A stretch of 64,000 nt of DNA from Tabrizicola aquatica (GTDB lineage Bacteria > Pseudomonadota > Alphaproteobacteria > Rhodobacterales > Rhodobacteraceae). Location of the stretch: NCBI RefSeq assembly GCF_002900975.1, contig NZ_PJON01000004.1, forward strand, positions 62,001 through 126,000. The letters run 5' to 3'. Shown here one piece after another: positions 1-9,035 of this stretch. The notes below the pieces were generated by a model. The model was not told the DNA's origin. It saw nothing but the letters and a program-made list of their open reading frames with translations, and ran no database searches. Position 1 is the first letter of the stretch. Each line of letters starts with the position of its first letter. The translations under genes and the position numbers were made by a program.

Positions 1-2124
1 CAAAAGCGCCGGGGCGTGGAAGCGTGGGCCGAACTGCGCGGTCAGGCCCCGGCAGATCTCGACCGCCCGTGCCGCGCCGATCATGTCCAGCCACGAGAAC
101 GGTCCGCCCGACCAGGGCGCAAAGCCCCAGCCCAGGATCGCCCCCACGTCGCCTTCGCGGATATCGGTCAGAACACCTTCCTCCAGCGCCCGCACCGCCT
201 CCAGTACCTGCGCGAAAAGCAGTCGGTGCTGCACGTCGGCAAGGCTGGGCTGCGCCTTGTCCAGCGGATACTTCGCCTCCAGCCCGTCCCAGAGGCCCAG
301 ACGCTCGCCCTTGTCGGAATAGGCGTAGAAACCCGCGTTGGTTTTCTTGCCCAGCCGCCCCTGGTCGGCCATCCAGAAGATCACATGATCCACAGCTTCG
401 TCCGGGTAGTCCTTGCCCATCGCGGCCTTGGTCGCCTTGGCGATCTTCACCCCAAGGTCGATGGAGGTCTCGTCTACCAGTTGCAGCGGGCCAAGCGGCA
501 TCCCGACCAGCTTGGCGGCATTTTCCACCAGCGCCGGTTCCACCCCTTCGGCCACCATGCGGATACCTTCGTTGATGTAAGGAATGATGCAGCGGTTGGC
601 GTAGAAGAAGCGGGCGTCGTTGACAACGATGGGGGTCTTGCGGATCTGGCGGACGAAATCCAGCGCCTTGGCCACCGCGCGGTCGCCGGTCGCCTTGCCG
701 CGGATGATCTCGACCAGCATCATCTTGTCCACCGGGCTGAAGAAGTGGATTCCGATGAACTGCTCGGGCCGCTTCGATGCTGCAGCAAGCCCGGTGATCG
801 GCAGGGTGGAGGTGTTGGTGGCGTAGATGCAGTCCGGGCCCACGGCAGCCTCGACCTTGGCCGTCACCTCTGCCTTGATTTTCGGGTCCTCGAATACCGC
901 TTCCACGATCAGGTCCGCCCCGGCCAGCGCCGCGTAATCGGTCGTTGCGGTGATCCGACCCAGCACCTCGGCCTTCTTCTCGGCGGTGACCTTGCCGCGC
1001 TTCATCCCCTTGTCGAGGATGCCCTCGGAATGGGCCTTGCCCCGGTCGGCGGCGTCCTGCGCCGCGTCGATCAGGACGACCTCGATCCCGGCATTGGCGG
1101 CGACATAGGCGATGCCTGCACCCATCATCCCGGCACCGATGACGCCCAGTTTCTTCACCGCCATATCGGCGACCTTGGGCCGGTTCGCCCCTTTCTCCAG
1201 CGCTTCCTTGTTGATGAAAAGGCTGCGGATCATCGCGGTGGACGAGGGGTTCATCAGGACAGACGTAAAGTGCCGCGCCTCGATCTTCAGCGCCGTGTCG
1301 AAGGGAACCAACGCGCCCTCATAGACGGCAGCAAGCAGGGCCTTCGCGGCCGGATAGACGCCCATCGTCTTGCTGTGAACCATGGCCGAGGCCCCGACAA
1401 AGGTCATGAAGCCCGCCGGATGGTAGGGCGCGCCGCCCGGCATCTTGTAACCCTTGGCGTCCCAGGGTTTCACCAGGTCGGCGTCCGTGGCCGACAGCAC
1501 CCATTCCTTTGCCCGCGCCAAAAGCGCCTCGGGTGCCACGACCTCGTCGATGAGTCCGGCGGCCTTCGCTTCCTTGGGCGAGGAAAGCTTGCCCTCCAGC
1601 AGGAAGGGTGCCGCCATCATGGCACCCAGCTTGCGGGCCAGTCGCGTCGTGCCGCCCGCGCCGGGGAAGATTCCGACCATGATCTCGGGCAGGCCGATCT
1701 TGGCCTTGGGGTTGTCCGCCGCGATGATGCGGTGGCACGACAGCGGCAGTTCCAGCCCGATCCCCAGCGCGGTCCCCGGCAAGGCCGCGACGATGGGCTT
1801 GCCGCCCTTCAGCGTCTTGGGGTCCATCCCGGCGCGTTCGATCTTGCGCAGGACGTGGTGCATCTGCATCACGCCGTCGAAGATCGCCTCGGCCCCACCG
1901 GCCCGCATCTTCGCGATCACGTTCAGGTCCATGCCCCCGGCAAAGTCCTTCTTGCCCGAAGTGATGATCACGCCCTTCACCGCCCCATCCGCCAGGGCCT
2001 GGTCGATCAGCCCGTTCAAGGCCATGAACGCCTCGGTCGACATGACGTTCATCGACTTTGATGCGACGTCCCAGGTGATGGTGGCGACGCCGTCGGCATC
2101 GGTGGTCATGGTGAAGTCGGTCAT
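1..2124 (-). CDS. fadJ: FadJ/FadB-type enoyl-CoA hydratase / 3-hydroxyacyl-CoA dehydrogenase (3' end outside window)
   Basis: Multifunctional beta-oxidation enzyme that hydrates 2-enoyl-CoA and oxidises 3-hydroxyacyl-CoA with NAD. The reading frame begins MTDFTMTTDADG and stays open to base 1, giving 708 codons; the family is usually about 700-740 residues, so little is missing. The N-terminal third is a crotonase domain (ALPGTALGIGLELPLSCH, then GLPEIMVGIFPGAGG), followed by the Rossmann motif LGVIGAGMMGAGIAYVAANA and the TNTSTLPIT and GIHFFSPVDKM motifs of the dehydrogenase. The start is separated from the stop of the upstream NTF2-like gene by a single base, so translation is probably coupled. 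It is the last gene seen of the merR-led operon, together with acyl-CoA dehydrogenase and thiolase, which complete the cycle. Confidence 0.95.
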   Translation of the reverse strand, partial: MTDFTMTTDADGVATITWDVASKSMNVMSTEAFMALNGLIDQALADGAVKGVIITSGKKDFAGGMDLNVIAKMRAGGAEAIFDGVMQMHHVLRKIERAGMDPKTLKGGKPIVAALPGTALGIGLELPLSCHRIIAADNPKAKIGLPEIMVGIFPGAGGTTRLARKLGAMMAAPFLLEGKLSSPKEAKAAGLIDEVVAPEALLARAKEWVLSATDADLVKPWDAKGYKMPGGAPYHPAGFMTFVGASAMVHSKTMGVYPAAKALLAAVYEGALVPFDTALKIEARHFTSVLMNPSSTAMIRSLFINKEALEKGANRPKVADMAVKKLGVIGAGMMGAGIAYVAANAGIEVVLIDAAQDAADRGKAHSEGILDKGMKRGKVTAEKKAEVLGRITATTDYAALAGADLIVEAVFEDPKIKAEVTAKVEAAVGPDCIYATNTSTLPITGLAAASKRPEQFIGIHFFSPVDKMMLVEIIRGKATGDRAVAKALDFVRQIRKTPIVVNDARFFYANRCIIPYINEGIRMVAEGVEPALVENAAKLVGMPLGPLQLVDETSIDLGVKIAKATKAAMGKDYPDEAVDHVIFWMADQGRLGKKTNAGFYAYSDKGERLGLWDGLEAKYPLDKAQPSLADVQHRLLFAQVLEAVRALEEGVLTDIREGDVGAILGWGFAPWSGGPFSWLDMIGAARAVEICRGLTAQFGPRFHAPALL

Positions 2125-2125
2125 C

Positions 2126-2572
2126 TCAGCTCTCCTCGGTAGGCCAGGGTTCGGACGCAAGCCGGGTCAACAGGATCGGCCAGCGCGCGGCTTTGGTGGT
2201 GTTGTGGATCTTGATGGCTTTCCAGACGCCGCCGTAGCAGCCGATCCACATCTTGGAATGGAAGGTCGGCAGAACCTGGTGGTTTTCATTCATAAGCCGC
2301 GTGTCGTAGACGCCGACGATATGGTCCGTGCCTTGAAAGACCGCCGCCCGCACGGTGCGGATCATGCTGGTCACGCCATAGCCTTGCAGCATCGCGACAA
2401 AGTCGTCGAACCCGTCTTCCAGATCCTCAAGCGTGGCAATGCTCAGATTGGCGGACGAGGTCAGGATCCGCAGCGGCATCTGGATACGGGCGGCATAGGC
2501 CTCGAACTGCTCGGACATGACGGCATGGCCGACATCGTCAAGATAGGTCTGTAGAATGGCGGTCGGCTGCAC
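2126..2572 (-). CDS. NTF2/SnoaL-like small protein a
   Basis: Protein of about 148 residues with the length and pattern of an NTF2-like (SnoaL/DUF4440-type) alpha+beta cone: a helical start (ILQTYLDDVGHAVMSEQFEAY), then alternating strands ending in VWKAIKIHNTT. I place the start at the GTG at 2572, preceded by GGCAAGGA; the frame stays open upstream to 2935 but that part runs into the bicupin gene and shows no conserved motif. Two further genes with the same organisation lie upstream (3756-4214 and 4728-5147), each next to a cupin. The stop is one base from the fadJ start. NTF2-like proteins may be enzymes (isomerase, cyclase, hydratase) or ligand binders; no catalytic residue can be assigned, so the role in beta-oxidation is open. 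Confidence 0.75.
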   Translation of the reverse strand: MQPTAILQTYLDDVGHAVMSEQFEAYAARIQMPLRILTSSANLSIATLEDLEDGFDDFVAMLQGYGVTSMIRTVRAAVFQGTDHIVGVYDTRLMNENHQVLPTFHSKMWIGCYGGVWKAIKIHNTTKAARWPILLTRLASEPWPTEES

Positions 2573-2754
2573 GGCGGTGTCCTTGCCTGTCGTCGGGAGA
2601 TGGCGACCACCCCTGACAAGAAGGCGTCCACCATCGGCTTCCATGGTCGCTGAGGGCGCCAACGGATCATAGATCCGCGCACAACTCAAGATAGGCGCAT
2701 ACGACCCCACGCTAACCCTGGACGCGATCATCGGAACATGCCAGCCGCCAGCCA
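2573..2754. other. 182-bp non-coding gap inside the cupin/NTF2 block
   Basis: Gap between the bicupin stop and the NTF2-like gene a. It is less GC-rich than its surroundings in places (around 2680-2720) and contains no start with a good ribosome site other than the GTG at 2572. It may hold an internal promoter for NTF2-like a plus fadJ, or be a remnant left by the rearrangement that built the block. No clear -35/-10 pair or operator is visible. Confidence 0.4.
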
Positions 2755-3759
2755 TCACCGCAAAACCTTGCGCGGCCAGCCGGGATAAACGGTGCCGTCC
2801 TTGTGAAGTTGCGCACGCATGCAGTCGCGCCGGGAATAGTGCAGGTCGATGTCGGGATAGGTCACCTCGTCCTCGGGCAGGCGGGTGCCGGCGACGAAAT
2901 AGGTAACGGGCTGATCGGTGCGATTCTCCAGGCAATGGGCGTTAGGCACGCCGGCAGGCCAGCAGGCACAGGCGCCGCGGGAAAGGTCATGCGGACCGTC
3001 GTTTTCGTGCAGCGTGACCGTGCCGTTCAGCACGAACAGAAACTCATCCTCATTCGCATGCCAATGCCGCTGGCTGGAGCGCGCGCCGGGCAGCAGGGTC
3101 TCGGTGAACGCGCCAAACTGCGTCAGGCCGCCCGCGTCCGAAAGGGGCTGGGCGATGTAGTCGCCGATGTCATCATAGGGTGGCGGATAGCTGCCCTGCC
3201 CCCCCTCATCCGGGACCGAGCCCGCCCGGATGACCGCCGGCCGCTGCGTGCCGTCCCACGACCGGCCCCAGGGCGCGCGCAGGCCCAGAAGCCCGGCCGG
3301 AAGCGGGCCGCCCTTGATCACCGTACCGTCCTTGTCCTCGATCACCCAGGTGTCCGTATGGTTCACCTGGCGCAGGCCCTCGTCCGGATAGCTGCAGATG
3401 TCGCCCGCGGCCCGGCTGCCCAGCACCAGATACCGGCAGGGCGCGGCGCTGCGGTTCAGCAGGTGATGGGCGTTCGGGCAGCCATGCGGCCAGGCCACCG
3501 CGTCCCCCGGACCCAGGTCGTGCAGCCCCGCATCGTCGCGCAGGGTCACGCTGCCCTCCAGCACATAGACGAATTCATCCTCGGCCGAGTGCCAGTGCCG
3601 CCGCCCGGTCGTGGCGCCGGGAAACAGCGTCTGGTCATGCACTCCGAACTGGGTCAGCCCACCCGCATCCGACAGATGCAGCGTCTCGACCCGTCCCAGG
3701 CGGGTAAGGTCCGCCTCGGGGGTGACGCTGCGACGGATGCTGGCGGGGGCGACGATCAT
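2755..3759 (-). CDS. Bicupin protein (two fused cupin domains)
   Basis: A 334-residue protein made of two copies of one cupin unit. Copy 1 has LSDAGGLTQFG at about 29-39, RHWH..EDE with metal ligands H55, H57 and E62, and H98 in GCPNAHHL. Copy 2 has LSDAGGLTQFG at 206-216, H232, H234, E239 and H275 in GVPNAHCL. Both copies carry the full two-histidine cupin motif and the C-terminal DGT strand, so both can bind a divalent metal. No signal peptide, so cytoplasmic. A good AGGAGGT site precedes ATG 3759, and the start overlaps the NTF2-like b stop (ATGA). The single cupin at 4211-4681 is a third copy. Bicupins include dioxygenases, decarboxylases and isomerases; the substrate is unknown. Confidence 0.85.
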   Translation of the reverse strand: MIVAPASIRRSVTPEADLTRLGRVETLHLSDAGGLTQFGVHDQTLFPGATTGRRHWHSAEDEFVYVLEGSVTLRDDAGLHDLGPGDAVAWPHGCPNAHHLLNRSAAPCRYLVLGSRAAGDICSYPDEGLRQVNHTDTWVIEDKDGTVIKGGPLPAGLLGLRAPWGRSWDGTQRPAVIRAGSVPDEGGQGSYPPPYDDIGDYIAQPLSDAGGLTQFGAFTETLLPGARSSQRHWHANEDEFLFVLNGTVTLHENDGPHDLSRGACACWPAGVPNAHCLENRTDQPVTYFVAGTRLPEDEVTYPDIDLHYSRRDCMRAQLHKDGTVYPGWPRKVLR

Positions 3760-4214
3760 TGCACCTCCTGCCGGGTCAGGGCATCGACGTGGCCCATAAG
3801 ATCGGCCTCGGTCAGTGGCCAGCTGGCGCCTTCGATCATGTCGTACTGCGCTTCCGAGAAAAGCCAGCGGTCACCACGCCGGACCAGCGCGTGCCGCGAC
3901 AGTTGCGGATAGGCCAGCGACTCGCCATTGGCGATCAGATGGCTGCGGTGCCAGCCTTCGATCCGGTCGCGCGCCACATAATCGGCGGAACGGGCGATCC
4001 GTTCATAGTGCGTGATGCCGCGTGGCTTCAGGCTGCGGAGCAGGGTGTCGAAGGTCGGGCGCATCTCGTCGGCCGAGGTGATCAGATGCGTCGCGCGGCC
4101 GGTCTGCACCAGATAGGGCAGGTCGAGAAGGGCCATGTAGGCGTCGAAATCCTCGTCCCGGAAGGCCTGGGTGACGGCGTCAAGCGCCTGCTGGAAGATG
4201 TCGAGCGGGCTCAT
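3756..4214 (-). CDS. NTF2/SnoaL-like small protein b
   Basis: 152-residue protein of the NTF2-like type: N-terminal helices (ALDAVTQAFRDEDFDAYMALL), a strand-rich middle and a C-terminal RGDRWLFSEAQYDM strand typical of DUF4440/SnoaL proteins. Overlaps the single-cupin gene upstream and the bicupin gene downstream by 4 bp on each side, which indicates tight translational coupling. Same general layout as proteins a and c of this block (helix pair, F/Y-A-Y, long beta sheet), suggesting descent from one ancestor by duplication, although identity looks low by eye. No catalytic residue can be named. No signal peptide or membrane segment. Confidence 0.8.
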   Translation of the reverse strand: MSPLDIFQQALDAVTQAFRDEDFDAYMALLDLPYLVQTGRATHLITSADEMRPTFDTLLRSLKPRGITHYERIARSADYVARDRIEGWHRSHLIANGESLAYPQLSRHALVRRGDRWLFSEAQYDMIEGASWPLTEADLMGHVDALTRQEVQ

Positions 4215-4681
4215 CGCGGCCCCCGGAACTCGGTCCCGTCCTTATAGGTGAAACGCGCCTTCCCGCCGTCGATCTCGATCTTCAGGTCAACGTCGGAATA
4301 GGTTGCCACCTCGCGCGGGGCCTTGGTTCCGACCACCAGGAACCGTGCAACGCGGGCAGAGCGGTTGATGAAATGGTGCCCATCCGTGGACCCCGCCGGG
4401 AAGGCCGCGCAATCGCCCGCGCGCATGACGGTTTCGCCGGCGTCCTGCACCAGGGTGCATTCGCCTTCGGTCACCATCACGAACTCATCCTCGTTCAGGT
4501 GCCAGTGACGCAGACTGGACAGCGCCCCGGGCTCCAGCGTCACCAGATTGGCGCCGAACTGGGTCAGCCCGCCCGCATCGCCCAGGCGCAGCGAGGATCG
4601 CCCCTGCATCATGCTGGCATAGGGTTCGGGATAGATGCTGCCGGTTTTTACCGGGACTTTGGCAGGATCAATCACGGGCAT
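4211..4681 (-). CDS. Single-domain cupin protein
   Basis: 156-residue cupin closely related to each half of the bicupin downstream: LGDAGGLTQFG at 33-43, metal ligands H59, H61 and E66 in RHWHLNEDE, and H102 in DGHHF, followed by the same DGT-containing C-terminal strand. I start it at ATG 4681 because AAGGAG lies about 8 bases upstream; an upstream ATG at 4705 has no good ribosome site. It lies 46 bp downstream of NTF2-like c and overlaps NTF2-like b by 4 bp. Likely a metal-dependent cytoplasmic enzyme or small-molecule sensor; nothing in the sequence identifies the substrate. Confidence 0.85.
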   Translation of the reverse strand: MPVIDPAKVPVKTGSIYPEPYASMMQGRSSLRLGDAGGLTQFGANLVTLEPGALSSLRHWHLNEDEFVMVTEGECTLVQDAGETVMRAGDCAAFPAGSTDGHHFINRSARVARFLVVGTKAPREVATYSDVDLKIEIDGGKARFTYKDGTEFRGPR

Positions 4682-4727
4682 CGCGGGGCTCCTTCCGGCG
4701 GGCAATGGCTCGACCGGGGCCGCGCGG

Positions 4728-5147
4728 TCAGGCCGACAGGGCGAGTGCTGCGAAGCTGGGGTTCAGTTCCGGCATCGACAGACGGGTATAGGTCACCATT
4801 TCGGTGCGCATCCCGTCCGGCGTCAATCGGCTGTAGTACAGCGCCGAGGACACGCGCGTCGCGTCCGGCGCGATCTCGTGCCAGTCCACCCAAAAGCGCA
4901 CCCGGTCCGAGGTCGGCATGTCCACCGCAACCACCTCGGGCTGGATGGCATGGACGCCCCGGTCGCGGAACGCTTGGCGCAGCACGCCCAGCATCGCCCG
5001 CCCGTCGTCCGCATTGCGCACGATAAGCCGGCTTTTGCCCAGAAACAGCGGCAAGGGATAGCGGTACTGCTGGGCCAGCTCCTCCAGCCGCCCGGTCAGC
5101 AGCAGGTCGGCCCGGTTGCGCAACTGCGCCTGAACCTTCGCAAACAT
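4728..5147 (-). CDS. NTF2/SnoaL-like small protein c
   Basis: Protein of about 139 residues beginning MFAKVQAQLRN. NTF2-like pattern: two helices with LEELAQQY, a strand RLIVRNADDG, a third helix, and a long sheet VVAVDMPTSDRVRFWVDWHEI to EMVTYTRLSM. The frame is open further upstream to 5519 but that part overlaps the thiolase gene and is not conserved in character; ATG 5147 is the plausible start, with a weak GGGA upstream. First gene of the cupin/NTF2 block downstream of thiolase (157-bp gap), so the block may have its own promoter there. Function unknown. Confidence 0.75.
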   Translation of the reverse strand: MFAKVQAQLRNRADLLLTGRLEELAQQYRYPLPLFLGKSRLIVRNADDGRAMLGVLRQAFRDRGVHAIQPEVVAVDMPTSDRVRFWVDWHEIAPDATRVSSALYYSRLTPDGMRTEMVTYTRLSMPELNPSFAALALSA

Positions 5148-5304
5148 CACGTCCCGACCTTTCGCATCCCGATGGACAAGCAACGATCTTGGGAGAATCA
5201 CAGCTAGCACGACGCACGGACGCGACAATACCCTGCCCGAAAACGACAGCATGGCGGACTTGCCGTCCGTGCATATCGTTGCGGCAGGCAGGGTGCCGCA
5301 TGGG
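5148..5304. other. 157-bp gap upstream of the cupin/NTF2 block
   Basis: Non-coding region between the thiolase stop and NTF2-like c. It is the largest break upstream of the block and the natural place for a dedicated promoter. I see no perfect palindrome like the one upstream of merR and no convincing intrinsic terminator, so read-through from the beta-oxidation promoter is also possible. Confidence 0.4.
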
Positions 5305-6516
5305 TCAGACCCGCTCGATGATGGTTGCGGCGCCCATTCCGCTGGCGATGCAAAGCGTTGCAAGGCCAAGCTCCTTGTCCTGCCGCTCCAGCTCGTCCAG
5401 CAGGGTGCCGATGATGATCGCGCCGGTCGCGCCCAACGGATGCCCCATGGCAATAGCGCCACCATTGACGTTGACCAGCGCAGGATCGACGTCAAAGGCC
5501 TGCTGGAAGCGCAGGACAACGCTGGCGAAGGCTTCGTTGACTTCGAACAGATCGATGTCGCGGATGCCGATGCCGCTGTCCTGCAGGATCTTCTGCGTCG
5601 CCGGGACCGGACCGGTCAGCATGATCGTGGGATCGGTGCCGATCTTCGCCGTCGCCCGGATCTTGGCACGCGGCTTCAGCCCGTGGGCACGGCCGAACTC
5701 GGCGTTGCCTATCAGGACGGCCGCCGCCCCGTCCACGATGCCGCTGGAGTTGCCGGCATGGTGGATATGCTCGATCCGCTCCAGATGCGGATACTTCAGC
5801 ATGGCGACCTTGTCGAAGCCGGGCATCACCTCGCCCATGTCCTTGAAGGCAGGGCGCAGGGCCCCCAGCGTCTGCATGTCGGTGCCGGGGCGCATGTATT
5901 CGTCGGTCGCCAGGATCGGCAGACCGTTCTGGTCGCGGATCACCAGGACAGACTTCTCGAACCGCCCTTCCGCCCAGGCCAGCGCGGCGCGGCGCTGGGA
6001 TTCCACCGCCAGCGCGTCAACCTGATCGCGGGTGAAACCGTACTCCGTGGCGATGATATCCGCACTGATCCCCTGCGGGACGAAGTAGGTTTTCATCGCC
6101 AGCCCGGGGTCCACCGCAATCGCCGCCCCGTCGCTGCCCATCGCGACCCGGCCCATCATCTCGACCCCCCCGGCGATATAGGCGTGTCCCGCGCCGCCCT
6201 TCACCTGGTTCGCGGCAAGGTTCACCGCCTCCATTCCGCTCGCGCAGAAGCGGTTGATGGCAAGGCCGGGGATGCGTTCGTCCAGATCCGAAGCCAGCAC
6301 CGCCGACCGTGCGAGGCACCCGCCCTGCTCGCCGACCTGGGTCACGTTGCCCCAGATCACGTCCTCGACGACATGGCCCTCCAGCCCGTTCCGCTCTTTC
6401 ACCGCGTTCAGCACCTTGGCCGACAGCGCGACCGAGGTCAGCTCGTGCAGGGCTCCGTCGGGACGGCCCTTGCCGCGCGGGCTGCGGACGGCGTCATAGA
6501 TATAGGCTTCGGTCAT
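5305..6516 (-). CDS. fadA: Acetyl-CoA C-acyltransferase (thiolase)
   Basis: 403-residue thiolase that cleaves 3-ketoacyl-CoA with CoA, the last step of beta-oxidation. The nucleophilic cysteine is C91 (NRFCASGMEAVN), the catalytic histidine H359 in GHPLGATG, and the second cysteine C389 in CIASGMG. Length is normal for the family. GAGGAG precedes ATG 6516. It lies 10 bp downstream of the GST-like gene and upstream of the cupin/NTF2 block and fadJ, so all enzymes of a beta-oxidation turn are in one transcription direction. Confidence 0.95.
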   Translation of the reverse strand: MTEAYIYDAVRSPRGKGRPDGALHELTSVALSAKVLNAVKERNGLEGHVVEDVIWGNVTQVGEQGGCLARSAVLASDLDERIPGLAINRFCASGMEAVNLAANQVKGGAGHAYIAGGVEMMGRVAMGSDGAAIAVDPGLAMKTYFVPQGISADIIATEYGFTRDQVDALAVESQRRAALAWAEGRFEKSVLVIRDQNGLPILATDEYMRPGTDMQTLGALRPAFKDMGEVMPGFDKVAMLKYPHLERIEHIHHAGNSSGIVDGAAAVLIGNAEFGRAHGLKPRAKIRATAKIGTDPTIMLTGPVPATQKILQDSGIGIRDIDLFEVNEAFASVVLRFQQAFDVDPALVNVNGGAIAMGHPLGATGAIIIGTLLDELERQDKELGLATLCIASGMGAATIIERV

Positions 6517-6526
6517 GGTCGTCTCC

Positions 6527-7153
6527 TCAGGTGGCGGGCAAGGCCCGCTGCATCAGATCGTAGGGGTGTTTCCAGCCGGGAAGGGCCGCGATGCGGTCCA
6601 GCCAGCGGTCGATATGCGCCCACTCGGCACGGTCAAAGCCATAGGGCTCGGGGTAATAGAGGTAGCCCGCGCAGGACAGGTCGGCGATGGTGACGGCCTC
6701 GCCCGCGACCCAGTTCCGGGCCGAGAGGTGGTCGTTCAGCACGGTATAGGCGGCCTTCAGGCGACCTTGCAGGAAGGGGATCACGCCTTCGGGGCGCTTC
6801 TCGGGCGGCAGGAAGTTCATCAAGAACCGCGTGGTACCGATCTGCGTGGACAGCTTGTGGTTGTCCCAGAAGAGCCAGCGCAGCACCTCGCGCCGTTCCG
6901 CGGCCGACTTGCCGCCCAGCTTGCCGGTCTTGGAGCTGATATAGTCCAGGATCACGCCCGACTGCGTCAGGGTCGTATCCCCGTCGATCAGCACGGGAAC
7001 CTCGCCCATCTCGTTGATCTTCTTGAACTCGGGCGACCGCCCCTCGCCCTTGAAAAAGTCGACATGGACCGGTTCCCAATCGAGATCGGCCATTTCCAGC
7101 GCCAAGGCGCATTTGTAGGCGTTGCCGCTTTCGCCGAAACAGTACAGCTTCAT
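6527..7153 (-). CDS. Glutathione S-transferase family protein
   Basis: 208-residue GST with an N-terminal thioredoxin-like domain (MKLYCFGESGNAYK at the glutathione site, NEMGEVPVLIDGD with the conserved cis-proline, then TQSGVILDYI) and an all-helical C-terminal domain containing the N-capping motif VTIADLSCAGYLYY. Cytoplasmic. GGGGAG precedes the ATG. It sits between acyl-CoA dehydrogenase and thiolase in the operon, an arrangement I recall from Rhodobacteraceae; a role in detoxifying reactive acyl intermediates is an inference from position only. Confidence 0.9.
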   Translation of the reverse strand: MKLYCFGESGNAYKCALALEMADLDWEPVHVDFFKGEGRSPEFKKINEMGEVPVLIDGDTTLTQSGVILDYISSKTGKLGGKSAAERREVLRWLFWDNHKLSTQIGTTRFLMNFLPPEKRPEGVIPFLQGRLKAAYTVLNDHLSARNWVAGEAVTIADLSCAGYLYYPEPYGFDRAEWAHIDRWLDRIAALPGWKHPYDLMQRALPAT

Positions 7154-7214: not shown

Positions 7215-8987
7215 CTAGAACGCCTCGGCGGCCAGCGCCATGACCGTATCCGCGCCGCTCTCGATCCGGGCCAGGTGCATCCCGCAGGCCGGAAGTTGGC
7301 GGGCCATGTAGAAGCGGCCGGTGGCGATCTTCGCCTCGTAGAAGTCGCGATCCTCGGCACCGGCATCCAGGGCCGTGTAGGCAGCCTTGGCCATCCGGGT
7401 CCACATCAGGCCCAGGCAGACATGGCCCATCATGTGCATGAAGTCATAGGACCCCGCCAGCGCGGCATTCGGGTTCTTCATGCCCTGGGCCATGAAGAAC
7501 ATGCCGGCCTGCTGCAGCTGCTTCGAGGCCGCCTTCAAGGGTTCGACGAAGCCCTTCATCCGGTCGTCGCCGTCATGCGCCTTGCACTCGGCCTTCACCA
7601 GGTCAAAGAACGCCATCACATGCTTGCCGCCATCGGTCGCCAGCTTCCGGCCCACCAGGTCCAGAGCCTGCACGCCGTTCGCCCCTTCGTAGATCATGGC
7701 GATCCGGGCATCGCGGGCGAACTGCGACATGCCCCATTCCTCGATATAGCCGTGCCCGCCATAGACCTGCTGGGCCTGCACCGCCATCTCGAAACCCTTG
7801 TCGGTCTGGAAGCCTTTCAGGACCGGGGTTAACAGGCCGATCAGCCCATCAGCCGCCATGTCGCCCTTGTGGGCGCGGTCGATCAGCGTGGCCCCCCAAT
7901 AGGTCAGCGCGCGGGCACCTTCGACGAAGCTTTTCTGCTCCATCAGGTTGCGGCGGATGTCGGGGTGGACGATCAGCGGGTCGGCGGGTCCGTTCGGGTT
8001 CTTCACCCCGGTCACGTCGCGGCCCTGCAGACGGTCCTTCGCATAGGCCAGCGCGTTCTGATACGCCGCCTCGGCAACCGCATAGCCCTGCAGCGCCACG
8101 CCAAGCCGGGCCTCGTTCATCATCGTGAACATGGCCTTCATGCCCTTGTGCAGGTCGCCCAGCAGCCAGCCCACAGCACCGTCATAGTTCATCACGCAGG
8201 TCGCGTTGCCGTGAATCCCCATCTTCTCTTCGACCTTGCCCACGGACACGGCGTTGCGGTCGCCCAGCGAGCCGTCGTCGTTCACCAGGAACTTCGGCAC
8301 GATGAACAGGCTGATGCCTTTGGTCCCCTCACCGCCGCCGGGGGCCTTGGCCAGGACCAGGTGGACGATGTTTTCCGCCATGTCGTGATCGCCGGCCGAG
8401 ATGAAGATCTTCTGGCCGGTGATCTTGTAGCTGCCGTCAGCCTGCGGCTCGGCCTTGGTGCGCAAGAGGCCAAGATCGGTGCCGCAATGCGGTTCCGTCA
8501 GGTTCATCGTGCCAGTCCAGTCGCAGCTGACCATCTTCGGCAGCCACTTCTGCTTTTGCTCGTCCGTTCCGTGGACCAGGATCGCCGAATAGGCGCCGTG
8601 GGTCAGGCCCTGATACATGTTGAATGCCATGTTGGCCGACACGAAGGTCTCGTTCACCGCCGTATGCATCAGATAGGGCAGCCCCTGCCCGCCGTATTCG
8701 GGGGCCGCGTCCAGCGCCATCCAGCCACCTTCCGACAGGGTGCGGAACGCTTCCTTGAACCCTTTCGGGGTGCGCACCACGCCGTTTTCCAGCACGCAAC
8801 CTTCCACGTCGCCCACCGCGTTCAAGGGCGTCAGGATATCCTGGGCGACCTTGGCGGCCTCGTCGAACACCGCTTCGGTGAAGCTGCGGTCAAGGTCGGC
8901 ATAACCGGGAATATCGGCCTCGCTGACCTTCAGCAGATCGTGCAGCAGGAACTGCATGTCCTTCACGGGGGCGGTGTAGCTGGGCAT
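7215..8987 (-). CDS. Long-form acyl-CoA dehydrogenase (DmdC-type, about 590 aa)
   Basis: FAD-dependent acyl-CoA dehydrogenase, first oxidative step of beta-oxidation. It begins [19 protein letters not shown] with GAGGAG just upstream; an in-frame extension to 9017 has no ribosome site. At about 590 residues it belongs to the long group that includes 3-methylmercaptopropionyl-CoA dehydrogenase (DmdC), with extra C-terminal helices. Visible motifs are [12 protein letters not shown] (FAD/substrate contact), [22 protein letters not shown] and [13 protein letters not shown], whose glutamate is the expected catalytic base. Substrate range cannot be told from sequence; no dmdD-like hydratase is nearby other than the fadJ crotonase domain. 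Directly downstream of merR. Confidence 0.92.
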
Positions 8988-9035
8988 TCGTGCTCTCCTC
9001 TTGCTTCGTGCAGCCACCCTTGGCAGGGCGGGTCG

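Follow-up and report, generated by a model that had tools for sequence, protein, structure and literature searches.

Cupin and NTF2-like genes in a variable slot of a beta-oxidation operon of Tabrizicola

Introduction

The closest solved structure to the proteins discussed here, PDB entry 3I7D, is a single cupin, which we take to originate from Silicibacter (Ruegeria) pomeroyi and for which no function was found in the literature. It resembles in sequence one of the cupins encoded in the window, that is, the whole stretch of 64,000 nucleotides (nt) of Tabrizicola aquatica DNA analysed here (G000:C7:62001-126000, within a near-complete genome of 3.87 Mb). In the window, a bicupin and three NTF2-like genes are added to this cupin, hereafter cupin 1. 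The five genes fill the interval between the thiolase and fadJ genes of a fatty-acid beta-oxidation operon, and this interval will be called the slot. In phylogenetic trees, 3I7D itself nests among cupins standing alone in such slots.

Other known systems share single features with the locus. Oxalate decarboxylase (OxdC), quercetin dioxygenase and ureidoglycine aminohydrolase also have two cupin units per chain, with comparable metal motifs. However, the window scores far below the NCBIfam cut-offs for oxalate decarboxylase (TIGR03404, 23.9 and 22.7 bits against 254.2) and for (S)-ureidoglycine aminohydrolase (TIGR03214, 13.2 and 24.7 bits against 200), which ruled out both identities for the bicupin, and the C-terminal half of the bicupin is closer to the single cupin 3i7d (3e-28). 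RemF-type cupin cyclases and SnoaL-type NTF2 cyclases both act on beta-keto compounds. Likeness to them is seen in the N-terminal half of the bicupin (6.7e-6 with RemF) and in NTF2-like b (a sub-threshold SnoaL_3 match), but the similarity is at the level of the fold and no polyketide genes occur among the window neighbours examined. Finally, NTF2-like a and b share the predicted fold of the ketosteroid isomerase/SnoaL/NTF2-like superfamily, whereas a sequence search of PDB chains with the profile of NTF2-b/c gave none at E ≤ 1.

Thus, the folds and the operon are known, but we found the arrangement and its variability nowhere described. The literature search gave no system joining these genes and no text with both 'cupin' and 'fadJ', a result that spelling or journal coverage may limit. 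This agrees with the initial annotation, which knew of no named system with this layout, and leaves the function unassigned. We put at about an even chance the view that a conserved operon for fatty-acid beta-oxidation has here a variable accessory slot, which the five genes fill in one of its fullest forms seen, with a core cupin metalloenzyme and the other genes as add-ons.

The gene block of the window

On the minus strand, the genes follow one another in the order acyl-CoA dehydrogenase, glutathione S-transferase-like gene (gst), thiolase, NTF2-like a, cupin 1, NTF2-like b, bicupin, NTF2-like c and fadJ:

4728..5147, minus strand: NTF2-like a, 139 amino acids (aa); NTF2-like fold in the AlphaFold2 model
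4211..4681, minus strand: cupin 1 (core slot cupin), 156 aa; Pfam Cupin_2 match, 1.2e-17; presumed metal ligands intact
3756..4214, minus strand: NTF2-like b, 152 aa; SnoaL_3 match below threshold; fold from AlphaFold2
2755..3759, minus strand: bicupin, 334 aa; two complete cupin units, both with presumed metal ligands intact
2126..2572, minus strand: NTF2-like c; GTG start; ends 1 base pair (bp) before fadJ
5305..6516, minus strand: thiolase (acetyl-CoA C-acetyltransferase); NF006090, 663.6 bits against a cut-off of 514; upstream edge of the slot
1..2124, minus strand: fadJ-type gene, 729 aa; Pfam 3HCDH_N, 3HCDH and ECH_1; extends beyond the first base of the window
6527..7153, minus strand: gst; Pfam GST_N/GST_C
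7215..8996, minus strand: acyl-CoA dehydrogenase; Pfam Acyl-CoA_dh domains; first gene of the conserved fad stretch

The fadJ-type gene, read in locus L113, combines enoyl-CoA hydratase and 3-hydroxyacyl-CoA dehydrogenase and forms the downstream edge of the slot. Acyl-CoA dehydrogenase precedes gst-thiolase in the majority of slot loci. Re-reading of the window gave the same gene order and coordinates as the initial annotation, and the overlaps of 4 bp that it had reported in the middle of the block are real (cupin 1/NTF2-b at 4211-4214, NTF2-b/bicupin at 3756-3759), the genes being tightly packed. Two start codons are judgements. For cupin 1, the ATG at 4681 is most likely, rather than that of a longer open reading frame (ORF) beginning with TTG, and the PDB homologue begins there too. 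The start of NTF2-like c was put at the GTG at 2572, where most aligned relatives have an ATG. The block is not a chance arrangement, as the relatives of each gene share its place in other genomes of the genus.

A variable slot across the Rhodobacteraceae

The family was sampled with 198 genomes drawn from a larger group, one per genus except for two of Tabrizicola. Slot genes were mapped with profiles made from the window proteins, the cupin and NTF2 families being the two that were sought. A thiolase match is found in 190 of the 198 genomes and a cupin, anywhere in the genome, in 95 (E ≤ 1e-10). Beside that of the window, 80 cupin regions were fetched from 76 genomes, 18 genomes with weaker matches being left unplaced. 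The cupin stands in the slot in 59 of these regions and elsewhere in 20, the last region being of Tabrizicola. At least 59 of the 198 sampled genomes have a slot cupin; others carry an NTF2-like gene instead. The 59 slots contain one cupin only (33 loci), an NTF2-like gene followed by a cupin (8 loci) or larger sets of up to four genes, which include tandem cupins; a bicupin accompanies a single cupin in four loci and occurs alone in one. Forty thiolase loci, a hand-picked part of the genomes without slot cupin, were read in the same way: 22 slots have nothing recognised, 15 have one NTF2-like gene, two have two, and one is a split fadJ call. Here, 'nothing recognised' means no match to the cupin or NTF2 profiles, and two of these 22 intervals measure 300 bp or more, while one (L189) has an odd length that comes from ORF ends; one of the 15 single NTF2 calls (L174) scores only 16 bits.

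The survey of thiolase-fadJ intervals in Rhodobacteraceae, which the initial annotation had suggested, therefore gives contents ranging from nothing recognised to five genes. The two enzymes were expected normally to adjoin or to enclose one small gene; they do adjoin in part of the family, but an intervening cupin or NTF2-like gene is common. The picture of a repeated cupin plus NTF2-like pair could not be maintained, as NTF2-like genes occur in 20 of the 59 slots with a cupin and in 17 of the 40 without (no association, Fisher p = 0.41). Hence, the two families have been gained and lost separately and do not form an obligate pair. It is very likely that the slot is variable, selected and accessory.

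Sequence outside matched domains exceeds 300 nt in 51 of 127 slots, mostly as gene ends and gaps; the uncovered parts of L086 (637 nt) and L213 (538 nt) leave space for another small gene. The neighbours of the cupins were also considered as a functional clue. With the fad-operon loci set aside, no neighbour cluster was common to more than five of the 52 named loci, the picture looks like plain synteny, and this clue was dropped.

For a view beyond the family, 385 genomes were drawn from the whole class; 85 of them, the window's own included, have the cupin at E ≤ 1e-25. Three of the 29 foreign class loci, from three families, show the order acyl-CoA dehydrogenase-thiolase-cupin-fadJ. The NTF2 family was found, with one query sequence at E ≤ 1e-6, in at least two of the 385 genomes, both of the window's own family. 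The natural reading is that of an old thiolase-cupin-fadJ linkage, or of its transfer, with NTF2-like genes added in the Rhodobacteraceae. The tree does not settle the choice between old linkage and transfer, because the slot cupins of two Rhodobacteraceae loci (L059 and L070) are placed among the foreign cupins. Three further loci deserve mention. A Rhodoplanes piscinae bin (L254) has a thiolase-cupin-cupin-fadJ order, with more distant thiolase and fadJ. A Phenylobacterium bin (L242) has two tandem cupins of the same family, and the stretch fetched around them shows neither a thiolase nor a fadJ match. CP059262.1 (L235), named Exiguobacterium profundum, has a fad operon of Rhodobacteraceae type with a cupin and a bicupin, and its label is probably wrong.

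The slot within Tabrizicola

All 32 Tabrizicola genomes have the family cupin. NTF2-a is found in 29 of them and a strong NTF2-b match in 21; the bicupin, counted from matches at least about 300 aa long, is present in 20. Thirty loci could be read (L151 and L154, cut by contig ends, are uncounted and duplicate short loci L114-L142 excluded). Six, the window included, have the full five genes, seven show the order N-C-N-CC (NTF2-cupin-NTF2-bicupin), and 17 have other sets, nearly all smaller; five genes also occur in one further genome whose contig ends before the thiolase. Since none of the 59 slot-cupin loci elsewhere in the family has it, the five-gene block is not the arrangement of most relatives. 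Among named relatives, Tabrizicola soli is nearest in the contig scan (77% over the bicupin).

Remnants of slot genes are present in five loci of the genus: a bicupin tail in L111 and L172, a cupin-like piece at the place of the bicupin in L168, an NTF2-a tail in L164 and an NTF2-b head in L170. These remnants indicate losses of slot genes, which suggests that a larger block has been repeatedly trimmed in Tabrizicola. We take the full block, or one near it, to be ancestral in the genus, parallel gain appearing less likely.

Relations among the copies

Trees were calculated for the NTF2-like proteins (106 rows, 121 columns) and for the cupin units (192 rows, 137 columns); both contain many open forks. 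NTF2-a, NTF2-b and the NTF2-c of the genus form separate clades, each with a support of 99 in the Shimodaira-Hasegawa-like approximate likelihood ratio test (SH-aLRT). The NTF2-b clade consists of genus rows only, that of NTF2-a takes in a few other genera, and the genus NTF2-c clade is orthologous and adjoins fadJ. Cupin 1 lies within a clade of single and first cupins (SH-aLRT 98).

The bicupins have a more complex history. Their N-terminal halves form one clade (96), apart from the long-branched L036. Most C-terminal halves also form one clade (95), which includes L162, a single second cupin, whereas L034, L035 and T. thermarum (L161) have C halves that cluster with the second cupins of tandem loci. 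A tree constrained to keep all C halves in one group is worse by 88 log units (approximately unbiased (AU) test, p = 0.022), a test whose rows were named after the tree had been seen, with L036 omitted because of its long branch and L162 forced outside although it lies inside the main C-half clade; the restricted tree behind it also omits most genus rows and the long rows L107 and L110. The C halves seem to be of more than one origin, and on these sequences the partners in the bicupin fusion have probably been replaced, or fusion has occurred more than once.

The initial annotation had described the block as built by duplication. It is not a recent local duplication, as the cupin and NTF2 clades are kept by position across genomes. 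A recent local duplication of a cupin-NTF2 pair was rejected, since paralogues group by position and slot cupins and NTF2-like genes are unassociated. As far as the trees allow one to judge, the copies are paralogues of long standing, each keeping its position.

The cupins

Both cupins match Pfam Cupin_2 well above its cut-off of 27.2 bits, cupin 1 with 63.7 bits and the bicupin, in two stretches, with 109.6 bits (6.2e-32). The three cupin units had been considered as copies of one unit, one pair now fused; they are indeed homologous (42-50% pairwise identity), and two of them reside in the bicupin. The presumed metal ligands H, H, E, H (H-x-H, E, H; 3-His/1-Glu) can be recognised in cupin 1 and in both halves of the bicupin, as the initial annotation had stated. 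No variation is seen at the first His, the Glu or the last His in any of 192 cupin units, whether these come from slot or non-slot loci.

Cupin 1 matches 3i7d_A over nearly its whole length (1.6e-52). As this chain is named 'sugar phosphate isomerase', cupin 1 might be taken for such an enzyme. Nevertheless, the name is a depositor's label, 3I7D falls among thiolase-fadJ slot cupins and no sugar gene is found among the operon genes examined, so that this identity appears very improbable. Alternatively, as also proposed initially, the cupins could be oxygenases acting on thiols or rings, preparing sulfur-containing or aromatic acids for beta-oxidation. Cupins include dioxygenases, and their ligands would suit Fe or Mn; moreover, both cupins of the window are weakly similar in sequence to quercetin 2,3-dioxygenase chains (E 0.0001-0.002). 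We nonetheless hold this role improbable, because thiol dioxygenase families are not among the Pfam and NCBIfam matches and no reductase or aromatic gene was recognised in the slot. Cupin lyases of dimethylsulfoniopropionate (DddL/Q/W/K) are likewise not named among the Pfam/NCBIfam matches listed, no dedicated comparison having been made.

The NTF2-like proteins

NTF2-b scores 20.5 bits with SnoaL_3 (PF13474), under the Pfam cut-off of 22 bits, and this family matches 2 of the 26 members of set A1 at E ≤ 0.01; NTF2-a and NTF2-c match no Pfam NTF2 family. In two-sequence blastp comparisons, NTF2-b is similar to NTF2-c (4.7e-12) and NTF2-a to NTF2-b (3e-4). After four rounds of profile widening, a, b and c recognised one another. 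These mutual matches support, but do not prove, common descent.

AlphaFold2 was run on NTF2-a and NTF2-b and gave in both a cone-shaped NTF2-like fold, with long helices on a curved sheet (predicted local distance difference test (pLDDT) of 93.1 and 94.7, respectively). The alignments behind these models leave aside three candidate rows (L228, L238 and L244), which are not clearly of the type. NTF2/ketosteroid isomerase-type structures are the top PDB structure matches of both models, and among those of NTF2-b (VIA-align) are oligomerisation hubs, for instance the association domain of CaMKII. The predicted models give a fold, not a function.

Constraint and packing

The slot genes differ strongly in their conservation within the genus. 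When every protein is counted solely under the query that it matches best, the median identity to the window is 92% for thiolase (n = 29) and fadJ (n = 28), 89% for gst (n = 25) and 86% for cupin 1 (n = 30); a comparison made without this assignment gives 92% for acyl-CoA dehydrogenase. It falls to 64% for the bicupin (n = 19), 55% for NTF2-c (n = 13), 54% for NTF2-b (n = 20) and 47% for NTF2-a (n = 28). The ratio of non-synonymous to synonymous substitutions (dN/dS; Nei-Gojobori, 14 closest pairs only, dS being near or above 1 in several) is 0.07-0.23 for cupin 1 and 0.05-0.28 for gst, thiolase and fadJ, against 0.20-0.91 for the NTF2-like genes and the bicupin. All values are below 1; 25 of the 31 NTF2/bicupin values lie between 0.20 and 0.50, and the maximum, 0.91, belongs to NTF2-a. 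Divergence at fourfold sites follows that of the flanks with Spearman coefficients of 0.61 for gst, 0.58 for cupin 1 and 0.17 for NTF2-a, from pairs that are not independent and few sites in short genes. Taken together, identities, dN/dS and fourfold sites indicate that cupin 1 behaves like a core gene, and the others like diversifying, partly exchanged add-ons.

These data bear on the idea that the slot is merely a permissive insertion site, whose small genes are co-expressed with the operon and unrelated to fatty acids. Such an idea would account for the patchy presence of the genes, for the separate variation of cupin and NTF2 and, as exchange would, for an NTF2-a divergence that barely tracks the flanks when compared with gst. 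It is quite unlikely in view of the strong constraint on cupin 1 and of the occupation of the slot by the same cupin family in other families of the class.

An intergenic element upstream of the block

The gap between thiolase and NTF2-a measures 155-189 bp in 29 readable genus loci, most of which contain a conserved element:

5159..5228, minus strand: conserved intergenic element of about 70 nt; TGTCGC repeats, then GTGATTCTCCCAAG at 5188-5201

Its core 11-mer TGATTCTCCCA is exact in 21 of the 29 gaps and in none of 580 shuffles; within two changes, it occurs in 25 of the 29 gaps against 7 of the 580 shuffles. With up to one mismatch allowed, the 14-mer GTGATTCTCCCAAG occurs once in the genome of the window. 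Conservation is overstated in alignment A4, which contains 24 of the 29 gaps (the divergent L149, L158, L163, L167 and L173 are out), whereas the count of 21 uses all 29. Scoring of the whole element in 28 chosen loci found it strong in four of eight genus loci with NTF2-a (L113, L111, L166 and L169); the remaining four (L149, L158, L163 and L173) have a degenerate element or none. The three genus loci that have lost NTF2-a (L150, L157 and L164) do not have it, nor do 16 of 17 loci from other genera, the exception, L032, being weakly positive.

A structured RNA was rejected: Rfam gave no match in the gap and one sub-threshold match elsewhere, and RNAalifold found five pairs at -0.48 kcal/mol, which does not support RNA structure. 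The conservation was consequently read as a DNA signal. A scan for sigma-70 sites and terminators returned sites no more frequent than in shuffles, and the bicupin-NTF2c gap shows no conservation. We read the element as a candidate promoter or operator of the block, so that the Tabrizicola block probably has its own promoter.

Possible function of the slot

The general layout is acyl-CoA dehydrogenase-gst-thiolase-slot-fadJ. Cupin 1 is likely to be functionally tied to beta-oxidation and, with slightly less assurance, to be a catalytic metalloenzyme, as its conserved presumed ligands suggest. In such a model, it would act in a metal-dependent manner on a beta-oxidation intermediate that is off-pathway or poorly handled by thiolase and FadJ. 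As a guess, a 3-oxo-, 2-enoyl- or hydroxyacyl thioester would be changed by metal-assisted enolisation, isomerisation or hydrolysis; this class of substrates is proposed tentatively. The guess stems from the position of the slot between enzymes making and cutting 3-oxoacyl-CoA, and from the chemistry of cyclases and isomerases of the cupin and SnoaL-like kinds. As for the bicupin and the NTF2-like proteins, they would be later members, diversified in their substrates, with the NTF2 fold offering a hydrophobic pocket.

Several observations weigh against a core metalloenzyme of this kind. The second His ligand is replaced in 4 of the 192 cupin units, all of them slot cupins (L032, L053, L063 and L073) and none of Tabrizicola as the genomes were grouped. 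Of the 80 fetched family regions, 20 have a cupin of the same family outside the slot, and stand-alone cupins have no common neighbour. About half of the sampled family genomes have no cupin of this kind, which makes it dispensable for beta-oxidation itself. In the literature search, neither an enzyme activity nor a bound metal or a substrate was found for these proteins, and adjacency demonstrates linkage, not a shared reaction.

A non-catalytic role may be envisaged, in which the proteins would adjust channelling or flux by binding acyl-CoA or the thiolase/FadJ complex, the metal site of the cupin being structural or a sensor. In the single-cupin loci, the cupin is packed against fadJ, which it overlaps by 4 bp in 11 of 33 and by 8 bp in 6 of 33 (17 of 33 together), and cupin 1 is conserved almost like the enzymes; the oligomerisation hubs among the structure matches of NTF2-b also fit this role. 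On the other hand, the metal ligands are kept even in the fast-changing bicupins, suggesting chemistry, and one would not expect about half of the relatives to lack a necessary subunit of a complex. A purely non-catalytic role is therefore considered unlikely.

Returning to the accessory slot with a core cupin metalloenzyme, a bolder version may be imagined, in which the slot would be a modular, exchangeable cassette retuning beta-oxidation. The metallo-cupin would perform an undescribed acyl-CoA step, and cupin and NTF2 units would be added, fused, swapped and dropped under their own promoter, thereby widening or changing the range of usable acids. Swapping of units is suggested by two cases: the T. 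thermarum bicupin has an N half of the genus type and a C half grouped with second cupins of other loci, and L153 and L171 have NTF2-a proteins 90% identical, yet different cupins downstream. This cassette model is possible, though doubtful.

Concluding remarks

Beta-oxidation is treated as settled, yet its central operon in a large and ecologically important family has a recurring, uncharacterised cupin bearing metal ligands. If the core cupin acts catalytically on acyl-CoAs, fatty-acid degradation in bacteria would have a missing or side reaction open to testing, and a close relative of cupin 1 already has a crystal structure. Even if the role of these proteins were regulatory only, the slot would provide a naturally occurring set of genes gained, fused and lost between two enzymes that stay in place.

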